38,368 bases of DNA. Origin: Candidatus Aminicenantes bacterium. GTDB taxonomy: Bacteria; Acidobacteriota; Aminicenantia; UBA2199. Where the stretch lies: positions 1 through 38,368 of the forward strand of contig JAPKZL010000107.1 in assembly GCA_026393795.1 (NCBI GenBank), in the 5' to 3' direction. Shown in pieces: positions 8,987 to 31,938 of this stretch. The notes beneath the pieces are model-generated. The model made no database searches. It saw only the letters and a program-made list of their open reading frames with translations, and was not told the DNA's origin. Position 1 is the first letter of the stretch; each line of letters opens with the position of its first letter. Both the position numbers and the translations under genes were made by a program.

Positions 8987-9018
8987 GATCCCCCTAAATC
9001 CCCCCTTGCTAAGGGGAA
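8987..9018 (+). repeat. ATCCCCCC-type palindromic repeat, copy 1
   Basis: Reads GATCCCCCTAAATCCCCCC, then TTGCTAAGGGG. The CCCCCTT/AAGGGG part forms a short hairpin. It closely matches copy 2 at 9131-9168. This motif type is widespread in unrelated bacteria. Confidence 0.7.
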
Positions 9019-9026
9019 ACGCCATA

Positions 9027-9104
9027 AATTAGGGACGGAGGGTTAATATTTGACTTTTTTTGCATCGGGAAAAATAGTCAAAAATTAAAGTACCGTTCCC
9101 AATT
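9027..9104. repeat. GGGACGG inverted-repeat element, copy 1 (78 bp)
   Basis: Bounded by AATTAGGGACGG on the left and CCGTTCCCAATT on the right, so the ends are near-perfect inverted repeats. The AT-rich interior contains TTTGACT and AGTCAAA, which extend the hairpin. It shares a nearly identical interior with the copy at 11190-11265. It has the form of a REP/MITE-like non-autonomous element, and no transposase is encoded within it. Confidence 0.75.
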
Positions 9105-9130
9105 CCGTCCGCAATCTTCCCAGCTGTCCC

Positions 9131-9298: not shown

Positions 9299-9377
9299 AA
9301 TTGGGGACGGAGGTTAAAACTAGTAAACTCCACCTCATTGCTGGACAAATACAAGAATTATCTTACCGTCCCTAATT
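9299..9377. repeat. GGGACGG inverted-repeat element, copy 2 (79 bp)
   Basis: Bounded by AATTGGGGACGGAGGTTAA and CTTACCGTCCCTAATT. The outer arms match those of the 9027 copy, but the interior is unrelated. Conserved ends around variable middles are a feature of this family here. Confidence 0.7.
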
Positions 9378-10913: not shown

Positions 10914-11260
10914 GATTAAAATGCAGGCGAAACCATGAATCGAATATCCCGGTTTTATCAAGGCACTGGTTCGCCGCAAGGAGAAGGTTAAAGAAAAATA
11001 AAATAGTCTTATTCAGCCAGCAGGCAGGCAGCCCTAATGAGGTTGCCTCCTGTAGCGTTCAATCTGCCGTCGGGACAGATAAGCATCAGACCGGTGCCGA
11101 TGTTTTGCAGTCTTGTCGATGCTTCCCATATTTCTGACATCATAACCTTCTGGATTGCAGAAGGATTGCTGTCTAGTGTTAACGCCATTGATGGGGACGG
11201 AGTTTTAATATTTGACTTTTTTTGCATTAAAAAAATAATCGAAAATTAAAGTACTGTCCC
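10914..11260. other. Intergenic region with possible gene remnants
   Basis: 347 bp with no supported gene. On the minus strand a frame ending at 11009 reads through 'TGLMLICPDGRLNATGGNL', which looks protein-like but belongs to no family I recognise. Its only ATG lies inside the repeat at 11190-11265, so if real it is a truncated remnant. On the plus strand a short frame ending near 11000 (IKALVRRKEKVKEK, then stop) has no start. The right end is occupied by a GGGACGG element. Confidence 0.4.
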
Positions 11261-11265
11261 CTATT
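11190..11265. repeat. GGGACGG inverted-repeat element, copy 3
   Basis: GGGGACGG (11193-11200) pairs with CTGTCCCC (11254-11261). The interior TTTAATATTTGACTTTTTTT and the right-hand AAAATTAAAGTAC match the 9027 copy almost base for base. Its right end supplies the TAG stop codon of the phosphofructokinase gene (11261-11263, minus strand). Confidence 0.75.
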
Positions 11266-12460
11266 CCGTGAGCTTGTACGAGAGGGCTTCCTTGAGATCG
11301 AAAAAGTCGCTGCCGCGCGGTACGTTGCGCAAGCGAGTCAGCAGGGTCTGCGAGTCGATCAGCTGTTCGAAGGGGACGCCGACGATGGAGAAATTGTCCG
11401 AGACCGAGACCATGGAGGCGAACTGGCTGTTCTTGTACAGCTTGTACGCGCCAAAGCCGAGCATGCTAGCTAAAACCACGTCGAAGCTGATCGGCAGCGC
11501 GTTGCGCGTCTCGTAGCCGATCTGCTTGTAGATGATCTTTTTTTTGCGCCCGGTGCGGCGGCGGTAGACTTCCTCGGCAACATCGCGCAACACCCGGCCC
11601 ACTTCCGCCGTTCCCAGGATGACGTTGCCGTGGCGGTCCTTCTCGGTCGGCCGGTATTTTTCCGGCAGCTTGTCGGCCAAGCCCTCGGCCACGCAGATGA
11701 CCCCGTAATACTTGTCGTTCCTTTCCCGCAGCAGGATGGTGTCGACGATTTTTTCGGCCAGCTTTTCGAGGTCGAGCACCTCTTCCTCGACGTCCTCGGT
11801 GGAGACCATCTGGATCGCCTCGCCGGCGATGCCGGCGGCATAGGTCAGCCAGCCCGCCTTGCGGCCCATCAGTTCGACGATGAAATACGAGCCGGTGCTC
11901 TCGGCGTCGGCCTTGAGGTTGAGCAGCGCCTCCTGGCTGGCCTGCACGCTGCTCCAGTAGCCGAAGGTCCAGGCGATGCCGAAATAGTCGTTGTCGATGG
12001 TCTTGGGGATGTGGATCACCGGCAAGCCGAGACGGCTCAGGAAGTTGGCGGTCTTCAGGGTGTCGTCGCCGCCGATGGTGATCAGGCAGCCGATATCCAG
12101 GCTGTCAAGCGCCTCGAGGATGTTGCGCAGCCTTTTGTTCTTTTCGAGATCGTCCAGGTCGGGCGGCGACTTGATCAGGCGGCCGGGATTGGCGCGCGAC
12201 GTTTTCAGAAAGACGCCGCGCTGGTTGCGGATGCGCGAGATGCTGGCGTCGAGAACCTGGTAGTGGACGTTGGGCGACAAACAATAGCGGTTCTTGCTGT
12301 CGTAATCCTCCAGGAATTCGAAGCCGAAGAAAAAGCCGATGATCGGCACCCGGGCGTTGATGAAATTCAGCGCCACCGACGAGATGACGGCATTGGCCGA
12401 GGGGGCCGGGCCGCCGGAAAACAGCATGGCCACTTTTTTGTGTTTTGTAAAGTCGAACAT
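11261..12460 (-). CDS. pfp: 6-phosphofructokinase, PPi-dependent type
   Basis: 399 aa. Phosphorylates fructose 6-phosphate in glycolysis; the PPi type is reversible. The protein begins MFDFTKHKKVAMLFSGGPAP. The phosphoryl-donor site reads GGDD (130-133), and the next motif is PKTIDND (152-158). In family terms, Asp in GGDD and Lys in PKTIDND mark PPi enzymes, while ATP enzymes have GGDGS and PGTIDND. MGR at 198-200 binds fructose 6-phosphate. The start at 12460 was chosen because an open frame upstream of it is only the antisense of the thioesterase gene and because a promoter ends 7 nt before this ATG. The TAG stop lies in a repeat element, so the C-terminus may have been trimmed. Confidence 0.92.
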   Translation of the reverse strand: MFDFTKHKKVAMLFSGGPAPSANAVISSVALNFINARVPIIGFFFGFEFLEDYDSKNRYCLSPNVHYQVLDASISRIRNQRGVFLKTSRANPGRLIKSPPDLDDLEKNKRLRNILEALDSLDIGCLITIGGDDTLKTANFLSRLGLPVIHIPKTIDNDYFGIAWTFGYWSSVQASQEALLNLKADAESTGSYFIVELMGRKAGWLTYAAGIAGEAIQMVSTEDVEEEVLDLEKLAEKIVDTILLRERNDKYYGVICVAEGLADKLPEKYRPTEKDRHGNVILGTAEVGRVLRDVAEEVYRRRTGRKKKIIYKQIGYETRNALPISFDVVLASMLGFGAYKLYKNSQFASMVSVSDNFSIVGVPFEQLIDSQTLLTRLRNVPRGSDFFDLKEALSYKLTE

Positions 12461-27753: not shown

Positions 27754-27790
27754 GTAGGGGCGATCCGCCGGGTCGCCCCTACCCTTTTTT
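27754..27790 (+). terminator. GTAGGGG hairpin (copy 5) followed by T6, terminator of the DedA gene
   Basis: Arms GTAGGGGCGA (27754-27763) and TCGCCCCTAC (27773-27782) with a 9-nt loop, starting 2 nt after the DedA stop. CC and six T residues follow. The T run belongs to the duplicated sequence at 27783-27860, so the terminator combines a repeat and the flank of the duplicated gene end. Confidence 0.7.
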
Positions 27791-27860
27791 ATTCTTCTTT
27801 TTCTTCCAATTTGGCGATCTTGCCGCGCAGGCGCTGCAGCCGCTTTTCCAGCTCCTGCTG
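27783..27860. repeat. 78-bp direct repeat, left copy
   Basis: Aligns without gaps to 28766-28843 (offset 983) with 4 mismatches. It includes the last 24 codons or so of a gene, its TAA and six or so bases beyond. The two copies flank a GGGACGG element and a two-gene module. Confidence 0.85.
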
Positions 27861-27869
27861 CAAGCTGGG
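27789..27869 (-). pseudogene. Detached 3' end of the RNase H-like/TPR gene
   Basis: Reads VPSLQQELEKRLQRLRG then KIAKLEEKEE and stop on the minus strand. This is the same C-terminus as the intact gene ending at 28772. Bases 27783-27860 and 28766-28843 match at 74 of 78 positions. The four differences fall in Lys, Leu, Glu and Lys codons and none changes the protein. Upstream of this piece the sequence is cut off by a GGGACGG element, so it is a remnant. Confidence 0.85.
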
Positions 27870-27872
27870 AAC

Positions 27873-27953
27873 AATTAGGGACGGTAGGTTAATTCTTATA
27901 TTTGTTAATCAACGAGTGTGAAGTTTACAAGTTTTAAACTACCGTCCCCGATC
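27873..27953. repeat. GGGACGG inverted-repeat element, copy 4
   Basis: AATTAGGGACGGTAGGTTAA at the left and AAACTACCGTCCCCGATC at the right form inverted arms. The interior differs from that of the other copies. It abuts the truncated gene end on its left. Confidence 0.7.
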
Positions 27954-27984
27954 TGCGCTAATTTAGTATGAAATACTGATTATC

Positions 27985-28197
27985 TCAGGCGGGGCGCCTG
28001 CGGGCCGGAATCCGCCAGGCCGGGCGGACCGGTTTCTTTCCCACGGCCTTGCCGATGCCGGCAGCGATTTGCTGCAGCCGGACCACGACCTCAACCTTGC
28101 GGGCAAAGGGCATCGCGGCCTGCTTGCGCCGGAACTCGCTTTTCGCCCGCACCTTGCCTGCCAGCATGACGTCCGTGGCGGCCGCCTTATTTTTCAT
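27985..28197 (-). CDS. Small basic protein, partner of the nucleotidyltransferase
   Basis: 70 aa, strongly basic (about a quarter Arg/Lys). The core EFRRKQAAMPFARKVEVVVR followed by LQQIA has the 'MPF-x-x-K-V ... RLQ' pattern of small partner proteins often found directly after nucleotidyltransferase genes; I cannot name the family. Its ATG at 28197 overlaps the nucleotidyltransferase stop by 11 nt, so the two are translationally coupled. It could be an antitoxin or substrate of the enzyme, but no direct evidence is visible. The Pro/Arg-rich tail (RRRPA) may be disordered. Confidence 0.6.
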   Translation of the reverse strand: MKNKAAATDVMLAGKVRAKSEFRRKQAAMPFARKVEVVVRLQQIAAGIGKAVGKKPVRPAWRIPARRRPA

Positions 28198-28696
28198 CGT
28201 GCATCCGCTTCCATTGCAAGAATTTTTGCCGCAGACCGAACCGCTCCACCATTCTCGTTAGCTTGCTCTGGTCGATCTTGGTTTCTTCCATCATCTTGAA
28301 AAACCGCTCGCGGTCTTTGGCCCGCCCGGTTTGCACCATGACGGCCGCCAGGTGCTCCGCGGTCATGACCCGGGTAGCGGTTCCCTGATAGACGATCTCC
28401 CGCGCTTCGCTGACGGCCTCCTGCAGCAGCTCATTGTATGCCGGTAGGAACTGGACCGGGATCCCCTCGATGATGATTTGTTCTAGCTGCGGTCGGTAGC
28501 CCTTTTTTTTCAGGAAGCGATAGATGGCTTCCAGAGGCTGCAGGCCGGACTGATCGTCGGCGACAATGAAGACGTCCAAATCATAGGTGAGGAAAGGTTC
28601 GACATAAAAAACCGCTCCCATGCCGCCGCCGATGGCATAATCAGCGATAAAACCCTGCTTTTTCAGGTCATTCAGCACGGCCAGCGTCTTCTTCAT
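28187..28696 (-). CDS. Nucleotidyltransferase-fold protein (possible toxin-antitoxin enzyme)
   Basis: 169 aa from ATG 28696. The nucleotidyltransferase signature is present: GGG at 23-25, then D39-L-D41 in FLTYDLDVFIV, the metal-binding pair. The third acid expected in a following strand appears as Gln in GIPVQFLPAYN (Q82), so activity is uncertain. After that come EHLAAVMVQTGRAKDRERF and a C-terminal helical region. An in-frame ATG at 28732 exists, but a TTGCCA / 17 bp / TATTGT promoter covers it and ends 7 nt before ATG 28696. Similar proteins occur in AbiEii-type and other toxin-antitoxin modules. Confidence 0.75.
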   Translation of the reverse strand: MKKTLAVLNDLKKQGFIADYAIGGGMGAVFYVEPFLTYDLDVFIVADDQSGLQPLEAIYRFLKKKGYRPQLEQIIIEGIPVQFLPAYNELLQEAVSEAREIVYQGTATRVMTAEHLAAVMVQTGRAKDRERFFKMMEETKIDQSKLTRMVERFGLRQKFLQWKRMHDEK

Positions 28697-28703
28697 TGCT
28701 GAA

Positions 28704-28732
28704 ACAATAGCAGAAAAGCGGTTGTTTGGCAA
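28704..28732 (-). promoter_or_regulatory. Promoter of the nucleotidyltransferase module, leaderless type
   Basis: Minus strand: TTGCCA (28727-28732, five of six consensus bases), 17-bp spacer ending TGC, TATTGT (28704-28709), then 7 nt to ATG 28696. Confidence 0.55.
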
Positions 28733-28765
28733 TCGCCACTTTTACACATGACAGATTACCCATAT

Positions 28766-28843
28766 CCTTTTTTATTCTTCCTTTTCCTCCAGCTTGGCGA
28801 TCTTGCCGCGCAGGCGCTGCAGCCGCTTTTCCAGCTCCTGCTG
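28766..28843. repeat. 78-bp direct repeat, right copy (in the intact gene)
   Basis: The partner of 27783-27860; it covers the 3' end of the RNase H-like gene and the bases just past its stop. Confidence 0.85.
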
Positions 28844-30064
28844 CTGGCTCGGGCTGAGGCGGACGTTTTCCAGGGCCTTTTCCACGATCTCGACCGCCTG
28901 GTAGTAATTACGCTCGCGGTGTTCGTAATGGACCGAGATCTCGCGCAAGGCCTGGAGGTCGTTGGCGGAGGAGAGGATCTCCCAAAGTTGCAGGGCTTCC
29001 GTGTACAGTTTTTTCTTCTTCAGCAGCACCGACAGCCGGCGTACCGCCTGGATCTGCACATCGGCTCGTCCGCCGACATCCCTGGCGATCTGGTAGAAGG
29101 CCTCGGCCCTTTCCAGTAGCCCCGCCCTTTCGCAGAGCCGGCCGAGGCCGAGGATCTCGCCGCCGTCGTTGGTGAGCGAGTGGTCGTCCAGGTAGAGCGC
29201 GCCCAGCAGCACCACGGCCGCCAAGCCGACCAGGTCCATGGCGTTGTGCTCGACGACCGGTTCGATGGCGGCGAGATCGCCGCTGCGCAGGAAGCTGAAA
29301 TACAGGGCCGGGATGGCGCTGGCCTCGATATCGTCGGAGCGGGAAAGGCCCAGCAGCATCTCGCCCAAAAAACCCAGCTTGCGCGAATCGAAGGTGTTCT
29401 TCCAGATGGTGCGGGCCGGGAAAAGAAAATCGAGATGCGGCAGCCGCAGCAGCGGCAAGCGCCGGCGCTGCAGGATGTAGCGGGTTTCAAGCAAAGGGAA
29501 ATCGAAGGCCTTGCCGTTGAAGGTCACGGTGAAAGAATAATTGCCGGCGGCCAGGAAATCGTCGACCGCGGCCAGGAATTCCCCTTCCTTGTCCAGGTCC
29601 TGGAGGAGGAATATCTTTACCTGGAAGGACGTCGCGCTGAAAAAACCGAAACCGAGCATGAAGGGGATGGTTCCGGTTCCTCCGGCCAGGCCGGTCGTTT
29701 CGCTGTCGAAAAAAAGGGCCCGGCGCGGATCAAGGCCGGCGAAAGCCTCGCTGCCGGCGACGACCGCCAGCGTTTCCGCCTTCAGGTCGAACCACTTGCC
29801 CAGACGCACCTTGCCGTAGCGCCCGTCCAGGGAGTAGAAAAAATCCTTGACCAGGAAAGGTTCCCGGGCCGCGACACGGTGGGGGGCGGTGCCGGGGGCA
29901 ATCCCCCCCCCACCAGGGATTATGGCCCGCTGGCGCAGGTTCTGCTGGACAAGCTTCTCGAGCTTTTCCTTGGTGCTCAGCCTCTCGTCGGCATCCAGGC
30001 CGGACCATTTTTTCTGGATGTTTTTGCGATCGATTTCCTTCAGCCGCTCCTGCAATTTTCTCAT
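28772..30064 (-). CDS. YprB-like RNase H-fold (DEDD) nuclease with TPR-like C-terminus
   Basis: 430 aa from ATG 30064; a TTG at 30070 overlapping the upstream stop is an alternative. The nuclease core has D120-S-E122-T-T-G in 'RRALFFDSETTGLAGGTGT', then 'FTVTFNGKAFDFPLLETRY' and 'EHNAMDLVGLA', the three acidic motifs of DEDD-type exonucleases as in YprB/RNase_H_2. The last 130 residues are helical repeats ('LCERAGLLERAEAFYQIARD') and end in a charged coiled coil (ELEKRLQRLRGK). Codons 51-54 (Gly4) are a nine-G run, prone to slippage. It follows the sulfatase-fold gene by 2 nt or overlaps it. The substrate is unknown. Confidence 0.82.
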   Translation of the reverse strand: MRKLQERLKEIDRKNIQKKWSGLDADERLSTKEKLEKLVQQNLRQRAIIPGGGGIAPGTAPHRVAAREPFLVKDFFYSLDGRYGKVRLGKWFDLKAETLAVVAGSEAFAGLDPRRALFFDSETTGLAGGTGTIPFMLGFGFFSATSFQVKIFLLQDLDKEGEFLAAVDDFLAAGNYSFTVTFNGKAFDFPLLETRYILQRRRLPLLRLPHLDFLFPARTIWKNTFDSRKLGFLGEMLLGLSRSDDIEASAIPALYFSFLRSGDLAAIEPVVEHNAMDLVGLAAVVLLGALYLDDHSLTNDGGEILGLGRLCERAGLLERAEAFYQIARDVGGRADVQIQAVRRLSVLLKKKKLYTEALQLWEILSSANDLQALREISVHYEHRERNYYQAVEIVEKALENVRLSPSQQQELEKRLQRLRGKIAKLEEKEE

Positions 30065-30066
30065 GC

Positions 30067-31938
30067 TCAATTGTTGAGGTAGCCCAGGGCTTTCAGTTTT
30101 TCCATCAATTCCGGGTCGAGCCGATGGATGTTTTTTTTCAGGGCCTTGAGCCGGAGGATGTAATTGGCCAGCATTTTTCTATAGCGCGACTGGAAAGCCA
30201 TAGGCGGGAAATAGGGCTTGTCCGGCCCCATGGGGGTATCGGCCAGGGCGAACCATTCGTCACTGCTCGGGCACGGCTGCGGCGAAATCCCCTTTGCCGC
30301 AGTCAGCGGCGGCAAAAAATTGTGGATGTACTGATGCTGGTTGCGGACAAAGGAAACCTTCCCGAACAGGCCGCTATGGAAAGGGCTCACCGGCAGCGAC
30401 AGCTCCAACATCCGCTGCGCATCGGTGCGGACATCGTTGCCCGAATGGCCGGCATCATCGGCCAAACCGTATGGCGCCTTGATCAGGCCGGGGATATCGC
30501 TTATGCAAACCAGCTGGCCACGGATCTCACCGTTCTTTTGCCGCGGAAGCTTCATAACCAGTGGGATGCGGGTAAGCTCCGGGTAGAGAGTGTGCCCATG
30601 TTCCCAGTCGCCGTGGTCATAGAATTCCTCCCCGTGGTCGGCCAGAACGACCAGCAGCGCGTCGTCGAAACGCTTGCTGGCGCGCAAGTAAGCCAGGACC
30701 GGCTTCAGCAATTCCTGGTCGCTATAGAAAATGGAAGCGTCATAGAGGTCGATAAGCTTTTGCCGCTCCTCGGCCGCGGCAGGGGGCAGGGCGGGAATCC
30801 CCTTATGCAGCGTGCGCAGATCGTCGCTGACGACCAGCGAACCGGCATCCAGCCTGGGATTAAACGCCCTGAAATAGCTCTCGGGAGCCTTGTAGGGGGC
30901 GTGCATCTGATAGGTATGCAAAAAAACAAAAAGATCCTGGCCGGCAAAATTGGCCGCATCTTCCATGAATGAACCGTACAGCAATCCGGCAGCTTCCCTC
31001 TGAAAAACTTCATCGGAACGGCTGTTGTAACTTTGAAAACCGCGGAAAAAACCGTAATGCTCATCGACAAAGCCGCCGCCGGTCAGGGCCAGGGTGACGA
31101 AGCCGTCGGCCTGCATCGTTTCGGCCAGCAGCGGCAGATCGGCCGGGATCAGCGATTCGGGGGAGACGACGCCGTGTCCCAGAACATCGCGGCCGCTAAA
31201 GAGCGAAACATGGGCCGGCAACGTCCAAGACGAGGTGGAAAAAGCGCGGCTGAAAAGCAGGCTGCCCCTGGCCAGCTCATCCAGGGCCGGGGTGGTCCGG
31301 CGCTTGTAGCCGTAGGCCGAAACATGATCGGCGCGCAGGGTATCGAGCATGAGGATCAGCACCGTTCTGGGCCGGGGATGATCATGCAGCAGGCAGGGAT
31401 TGAGCCAGGCGCCGATGCCCTGGCCACGGGTTTCCAGAAGCAGATGCACCTTTTTCCCCCCGGCTGGCGGCAGGAACACCCTTTCAACCTTGCCGATCCG
31501 TTCCCGGGGAGTGATGCTGAACAGGATTTCTTCCTTCCCTGAAAGAACGGTCTTGACCAGGAAGGTAAGGAGCCCGGGCTGGAGAGCGAAGGGGGAAAAA
31601 ATCATTCGCTCGCCTTTTTGAGCGTCCAATTCGAGCTCGATGCGGCTGCCGGCCGGAGCCAGCAGGGCCTGGTAGCTGACTCCCCCATACTTCACCCGGC
31701 AATTTACCGCCTGATCCGGAAAAAAACGGTTGACGCGGTCACGCAAAAAAGTCCGCGCCGGTTCGCCTTGAGCGCCGATGGATTTCCAAGTCTGCTCTAT
31801 CAAGGCCGCGTCGAAGCCCAGCGGCCGGCCTAACAGGGATGGAATTTGCTTTTCTTTATCCGGGCGGAACAAAACAACCAGCAGCAGCACCCCCGCCGCT
31901 AGGCCCAGGGCGATCAAGAAAATTTTTTTTCGCGTCAT
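30067..31938 (-). CDS. Sulfatase-fold membrane-anchored hydrolase or phosphotransferase
   Basis: 623 aa. N-terminal membrane anchor (about residues 6-24), then a roughly 165-residue beta-rich domain, then the alkaline-phosphatase-like sulfatase domain. That domain opens with TVLILMLDTLRADHVSAYGY (metal ligand D199), followed by FSTSSWTLPAHVSLFSG. 'VVLADHGEEFYDHGDWEHGH' is the second metal site. True sulfatases have Cys or Ser as formylglycine precursor in C/S-x-P-x-R. Here the site reads T239-L-P-A-H, so a Thr nucleophile as in LtaS-like phosphotransferases is more likely. It is probably active in the periplasm. It is co-transcribed with the YprB-like gene. Confidence 0.82.
   Translation of the reverse strand: MTRKKIFLIALGLAAGVLLLVVLFRPDKEKQIPSLLGRPLGFDAALIEQTWKSIGAQGEPARTFLRDRVNRFFPDQAVNCRVKYGGVSYQALLAPAGSRIELELDAQKGERMIFSPFALQPGLLTFLVKTVLSGKEEILFSITPRERIGKVERVFLPPAGGKKVHLLLETRGQGIGAWLNPCLLHDHPRPRTVLILMLDTLRADHVSAYGYKRRTTPALDELARGSLLFSRAFSTSSWTLPAHVSLFSGRDVLGHGVVSPESLIPADLPLLAETMQADGFVTLALTGGGFVDEHYGFFRGFQSYNSRSDEVFQREAAGLLYGSFMEDAANFAGQDLFVFLHTYQMHAPYKAPESYFRAFNPRLDAGSLVVSDDLRTLHKGIPALPPAAAEERQKLIDLYDASIFYSDQELLKPVLAYLRASKRFDDALLVVLADHGEEFYDHGDWEHGHTLYPELTRIPLVMKLPRQKNGEIRGQLVCISDIPGLIKAPYGLADDAGHSGNDVRTDAQRMLELSLPVSPFHSGLFGKVSFVRNQHQYIHNFLPPLTAAKGISPQPCPSSDEWFALADTPMGPDKPYFPPMAFQSRYRKMLANYILRLKALKKNIHRLDPELMEKLKALGYLNN

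Follow-up and report, generated by a model that had tools for sequence, protein, structure and literature searches.

Small gene cassettes beside duplicated 3' ends of core genes in a genus of Candidatus Aminicenantes

Background

Integrative islands and phages that enter the 3' end of a gene or tRNA carry a copy of that end, which rebuilds the host gene while the original is displaced downstream. The loci described here differ from them in having no integrase and no fixed crossover, in lying at several unrelated host genes, and in carrying a cargo of one to few genes. The minimal mobile elements of Neisseria are reportedly swapped by recombination in both flanks, a process that duplicates no gene end; in our loci, an orphan end remains at one flank and successive layers can accumulate. 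Those elements (Saunders and Snyder 2002, cited in PMC1538595) are variable cassettes between conserved genes, with alternative or empty versions and no mobility gene, and the interval between yprB and dedA treated below is alike in holding a nucleotidyltransferase pair, other cargo or nothing, and no mobility gene.

The closest precedent found by our literature searches, which turned up no report of gene-end capture in Aminicenantes, is provided by the orphan effector/immunity arrays of the Vibrio cholerae T6SS, for which homology-facilitated illegitimate recombination (HFIR) was proposed (PMC5361080). The likeness extends to an upstream homology anchor with illegitimate joining downstream, an old 3' end moved behind the new module, layering, and the lack of an integrase; the HFIR-type features in our loci are an orphan end joined to the native downstream neighbour and a variable 5' boundary. 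Unlike in V. cholerae, ordinary core genes serve as anchors, and their function has no relation to the cargo (toxin-antitoxin and restriction-modification genes, regulators, envelope proteins). On balance, and with somewhat better than even confidence, we favor recurrent, integrase-free, homology-anchored capture at the 3' ends of core genes in this genus. Bacteria could then gather toxin-antitoxin, restriction-modification and other genes at core-gene ends without an integrase while the gene and its neighbor still work, and orphan ends would be a readable fossil record of the order of arrival. Island finders keyed on integrases or tRNA sites would miss such insertions.

A displaced yprB end in the window

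The window, the whole 38,368-nucleotide stretch of DNA that was analyzed, belongs to a Candidatus Aminicenantes MAG (G000), which we compared with 15 relatives in the genus. Its longest direct repeat is 94 nucleotides long and 90% identical, with a spacing of 983 (27776-27869 and 28759-28852). Copy A (28759-28852, minus strand) forms the in-frame 3' end, including the stop codon, of an intact YprB-like gene (RNase_H_2 domain, PF13482, 4e-27; 28772-30070, minus strand) that has orthologs in 44 of 60 relatives. We read copy A, which is contiguous with the cargo, as the new end of yprB, and copy B (27776-27869, minus strand) as the displaced, orphan end, which adjoins the native neighbor: a convergent dedA-like gene (VTT domain, PF09335; 27096-27752, plus strand) that is conserved in relatives. 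These two conserved genes flank a variable interval. A terminator-like hairpin occupies the gap between dedA and copy B (27754-27782, plus strand), and the 5' side of copy B is truncated by a REP/MITE-like inverted repeat of about 80 bp (27878-27948, no strand assigned), a dispersed element with further copies elsewhere in G000. Other copies of dispersed GGGACGG...CCGTCCC inverted-repeat elements lie in the window at 9018-9108, 9300-9377 and 11181-11269.

An initial annotation had described 78-bp direct repeats (27783-27860 and 28766-28843), matching at 74 of 78 sites, as copies of the 3' end of the YprB-like gene. This description holds: the repeat can be extended to 94 nucleotides, the upstream copy is the in-frame end with its stop codon, and all four differences in the 78-nucleotide core are indeed synonymous. 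The conclusion then drawn, that both copies had diverged under selection, does not follow. At each of the four sites the gene copy has G/C and the fragment A/T, and four random changes of this kind would all be synonymous with a probability of 0.09 (for any four transitions, 0.02); at a neutral chance of about 1 in 11, the synonymous differences are no evidence of selection. Moreover, the corresponding fragment in G012 contains an in-frame TAG and has lost its stop. Judged from the sequences, the four changes would fit AT-biased drift together with homogenization.

A MenT1-like nucleotidyltransferase and its small partner

Between the two copies, a gene for a 169-aa nucleotidyltransferase (NT; 28187-28696, minus strand, ATG at 28696) overlaps by 11 nucleotides a gene for a small basic partner of 70 aa (27985-28197, minus strand), a candidate antitoxin with two predicted helices; the nucleotidyltransferase fold and the overlap, at or near these coordinates, had been recognized in the initial annotation. 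A sigma-70-like promoter, TTGCCA-17-TATTGT (28704-28732, minus strand), ends 8 nucleotides before the NT start codon, is also conserved in G012, and is compatible with the leaderless reading proposed earlier.

The structural model of NT (pLDDT 82.6) has a MenT1-like fold. Its best Foldseek match is MenT1/MenAT1 (8an5, E 1.2e-7), and the top five matches are all MenT1/MenAT1 (8an5, 8an4, 8rr5; E 1e-5 to 1e-7, TM 0.64-0.74). The catalytic residues of MenT1 are T39, D41, K137 and D152 (PMC10435456). When residues are matched to these by motif position, as opposed to residue-level superposition, T38 and D40 are present in 58 of 58 NT homologs, K128 in 57 (one has a gap) and an aspartate at D143 in 43. 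D42 and D129 are also invariant, but T38, D40 and D42 were part of the pattern used to find the homologs, so that only K128 and D129 are free of that bias. Related nucleotidyltransferases often have a third acidic residue where this family reads 'VQFLP', a position that is Gln in 57 of 58 members.

With the MenAT1 system (MenT1 Rv0078A, MenA1 Rv0078B; PMC10435456, PMC11375011) the pair shares the nucleotidyltransferase fold, the T/D/K active-site residues and a small helical partner of about 70 aa. It differs in that NT is only 19% identical to MenT1 and that its partner has no recognizable homology to MenA1, by either a profile match to PDB sequences or a significant fold match. Since MenA antitoxins are diverse, this bars the statement that the pair is a MenAT1, but not that it works like one. 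On the evidence of the model, we regard the pair as MenAT1-like in architecture, with putative toxin and antitoxin roles. NT probably modifies tRNA or another nucleic acid, and the small helical partner would hold it in check.

A search for the enzyme and the small protein as a pair, which the initial annotation had recommended, showed the partner directly downstream of NT in 59 of 61 homologous loci, across many phyla. None of Pfam, NCBIfam, PADLOC and PHROGs gave a significant family for NT, although four of seven NT relatives match DUF2204 (Pfam) weakly, and the pair found nothing of weight among NCBIfam and PDB sequence profiles. We rejected a phage origin of the pair (no PHROGs match) and its assignment to a known defense system (no PADLOC match of weight). 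With this pair comes a widespread family of MenT1-like proteins, for which our search of the Pfam and NCBIfam libraries found no specific model. Gene-end duplications were not found flanking the homologous pairs of five other genomes (G002, G003, G015, G031 and G033), so the pair is not tied to this mode of insertion.

Empty and occupied sites among relatives

To support integration, the initial annotation had looked to empty sites with a single gene end and occupied sites with the same junctions. The genus has empty sites and an occupied site of the same arrangement. The yprB-dedA interval is empty in G003 (270 bp) and G015 (338 bp), and in G012 the pair again lies behind yprB, with a second, decayed yprB end after it. 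The annotation had also pointed to the opposite outcome, a full second yprB paralog that was later deleted. An orphan that is in frame and ends with a normal stop would suit such a history, but no genus relative has a second yprB in this interval, where G003 and G015 have nothing and further relatives have other genes. The paralog is largely excluded in those genus genomes that have yprB, and we regard it as exceedingly improbable.

Other cargo occupies the same site in other relatives. In G014, 4.8 kb with an M1-peptidase-like gene (on the opposite strand) and LuxR-type regulator/sensor genes lie between yprB and a second end of 239 bp that is 98% identical. Beyond this orphan end (L035, 3850-12200) is a spermidine-synthase-like gene, which is seen alone in the interval of G001; G010 and G013 have sensor kinases there. 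The lengths of the second yprB ends vary (94, 99 and 239 bp).

Could the junctions have been made by transposition of the REP/MITE-like element, or by its tyrosine transposase? The inverted repeat does abut copy B, and the yprB interval of G007 contains a transposase-like ORF. However, the element is missing from G012, where the same insert occurs, and was not seen at the other fragments, which makes it a later arrival; we therefore rejected it as the driver, and consider this origin of the junctions very improbable.

Returning to homology-anchored capture, the intact yprB ends of G000 and G012 have a GGC codon where copy B of G012 keeps the CAG of most outgroups. Copy B of the window has 4 differences to copy A versus 13 to copy B of G012. 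The greater likeness of copy B to the gene end in its own genome suggests either homogenization in the lineage of the window or a second event, one of which must be added to the capture model.

Whether a cassette travels with its gene end can be judged from a MutS-like gene found directly after yprB in G002, G007 and G008, and also in G006 (by DNA alignment). Between G006/G007 and G002/G008, the body of yprB is 72-74% identical, its last 60 bp 85% and the MutS-like cassette near 86%, and the four cassette-sharing pairs rank first among 42 cross-clade pairs for similarity of the yprB tail. The contigs at these loci end on the dedA side, and a possible exchange by homologous recombination can be followed at the yprB flank. 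As the pairs are non-independent, we take this as moderate sequence evidence that the cassette travels with the yprB end.

The same arrangement at other core genes

The phenomenon is wider than the window and would amount to a genus-wide tendency to take up small cassettes behind core genes. We scanned 688 kb (about 22%) of G000 for an intact gene, cargo and an orphan 3' end, and found the same anatomy at four genes besides yprB. One is an Asparaginase_C (gatD-like) gene with a 673-aa cargo and an orphan end of 259 bp (92%). The other three, whose regulator, HAL, PEGA, VapBC and HhH labels come from reading the sequences and not from a family search, are a sigma-54-type regulator with a helix-hairpin-helix-repeat-like cargo (orphan end 94 bp, 81%), a histidine-ammonia-lyase (HAL)-like gene with AbrB- and PIN-like (VapBC-like) genes and a 180-aa ORF (89 bp, 87%), and a PEGA-like gene with an 838-aa cargo (86 bp, 85%). 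Seven other repeats (L055, L162, L184, L193, L205, L214 and L244) were inspected and excluded because they were dispersed, of low complexity or hard to interpret. The scan gave hardly any clean equivalents at 5' ends.

Native neighbors identify the older of the two ends. In eight relatives RNase P RNA comes directly after the regulator gene. In G000 and G009, whose cargo differs, it comes after the orphan end instead; a third kind of cargo accompanies the orphan end of G006. Likewise, the native terminator of the HAL-like gene follows the intact gene in G006 and the orphan end in G000 and G012, again with different cargo in the latter two. These junctions show the orphan to be the original end, and the end now on the intact gene to have come with the insert. 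At L237 (8810-9180, minus strand) and in the relatives L310-L322, the 3' end of the regulator gene meets or overlaps RNase P RNA, and the Rfam match starts about 30 nucleotides inside the coding end. The regulator fragment may thus have been kept as the holder of the 5' part of rnpB, perhaps including its promoter.

The PEGA-like locus (L245, 8779-14963) has a different look, with a 5' fragment of the upstream gene, the cargo, and a kinase C-terminus fused to the PEGA-like tail, all in tandem order. It is better fitted by the main rival to capture, namely that a tandem duplication, or the single-crossover (Campbell-type) integration of a circle with the host-gene end and cargo, was followed by deletion of most of one copy; its remnants count against capture. 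The orphan HAL end in G012 is internally deleted, as this explanation would have it, and transformation-driven merodiploids are documented (PMC3784515). The direct repeats would further let RecA excise and re-insert circles of cargo plus end, moving cassettes without an integrase. On the other hand, usually two deletions would be required per locus, each sparing the exact gene end and the native neighbor, and no complete second host gene was seen at yprB, gatD, HAL or the regulator in the genus. We consider duplication and deletion possible but on the whole unlikely.

Layered arrays at gatD

Most genomes of the genus that have the gatD-like gene also have orphan ends of it, whereas other genera of the family have essentially single gatD ends. 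An array in G007 contains four of them, separated by BrnTA-like genes and by a BglII-type REase with an MT-A70 methylase. Across the arrays of the genus (L186, L285-L292, L298) the cargo also includes a DUF4143 AAA protein and a TonB-like protein, and the tails are near-perfectly conserved to the stop codon. The BrnTA layer adjoins the intact gatD in G006 but sits behind the newer 673-aa cargo in G000, so new arrivals go beside the intact gene.

Several contigs end inside gatD arrays, and the genomes are drafts, mostly MAGs, so that mixed strains in a metagenome bin might have produced such structures by misassembly. Yet the same structures recur in independent assemblies (the window insert in G000 and G012, the layers in G006 and G007, the regulator in G000, G006 and G009), and the copies are decayed and non-identical; an assembly artefact is highly improbable.

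The gatD orphan ends always reach the exact C-terminus, but their start points vary widely, from aa 96 to 187 of 201, or about 45 to 318 bp before the stop. This bears on a further explanation, a site-specific recombinase acting in trans that recognizes gene 3' ends, the replacement end being brought by the element. An intact gene plus a displaced copy is the classic outcome of such a reaction, the regulator fragments of three genomes (G000, G006, G009) all start 94-107 bp before the stop, and divergence often begins at the stop codon. Against these points stand the spread of the gatD starts, the unrelated host genes, and the absence of integrases from the cargo examined, in a genome whose only three PF00589 genes are on contigs C109, C284 and C20, outside the window. 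A recombinase of this kind seems to us improbable.

A proposed mechanism for insertion

Under homology-anchored capture, incoming DNA, perhaps obtained by DNA uptake, would carry the 3' part of a host gene followed by cargo. That part would pair by homology with the resident gene, probably in a RecA-dependent manner, and the far side would be joined by illegitimate recombination at a point that varies, lying in the final portion of the resident gene or past it. This would leave an intact host gene with a donor-derived end, followed by the cargo, and would strand the resident end as an orphan beside its native neighbor, where it would decay. Repeated capture at one gene would stack layers, the newest nearest to the intact gene. 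Variable starts, unrelated host genes, native junctions past the orphan and layering all fit this model. The ComEC- and DprA-like genes of G000 are in keeping with it, although such genes are too common to prove competence.

The initial annotation had suggested an element that inserts at the 3' end of this gene and rebuilds it with a copy of its own. Entry at the gene end is supported by the empty sites in G003 and G015, the occupied site in G012 and the junctions with native neighbors; a single dedicated element is not, as cargo and host gene vary freely. The unit does lack an integrase, as had been observed, as does all other cargo that we examined, and the fixed junctions typical of integrases were not found, fragment length ranging from about 45 to about 300 bp across loci.

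Some observations sit less easily with capture. No donor sequence with the predicted junction was found. HFIR is rare in the laboratory (PMC5361080), whereas insertions here are frequent, which counts against the model. Nor does capture alone predict the usual loss of homology between the two ends within a few bp of the stop codon; both this boundary and the strong preference for 3' ends are unexplained.

A gatD-tailed cassette at an unlinked place

Outside the array, G007 has a second copy of the REase/MTase cassette at an unlinked place (L302, 2158-3631, contig C81), which includes a gatD tail and is 85% identical to the array copy. A simple capture model leaves this cassette unexplained, and its gatD-tail-led form favors duplication with deletion. 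It also raises the thought that core-gene 3' ends are real cassette attachment sites, the tail traveling with each cargo, even to unlinked places, and a dedicated, unrecognized recombination activity stacking the cassettes in an integron-like acquisition without a known integrase. We hold this to be doubtful; if true, gene tails would be the attachment sites of a new cassette system. In G006, another stray gatD tail lies near an AbiEii-type toxin gene with an AbiEi-like neighbor (L301, 1-2416, contig C287).
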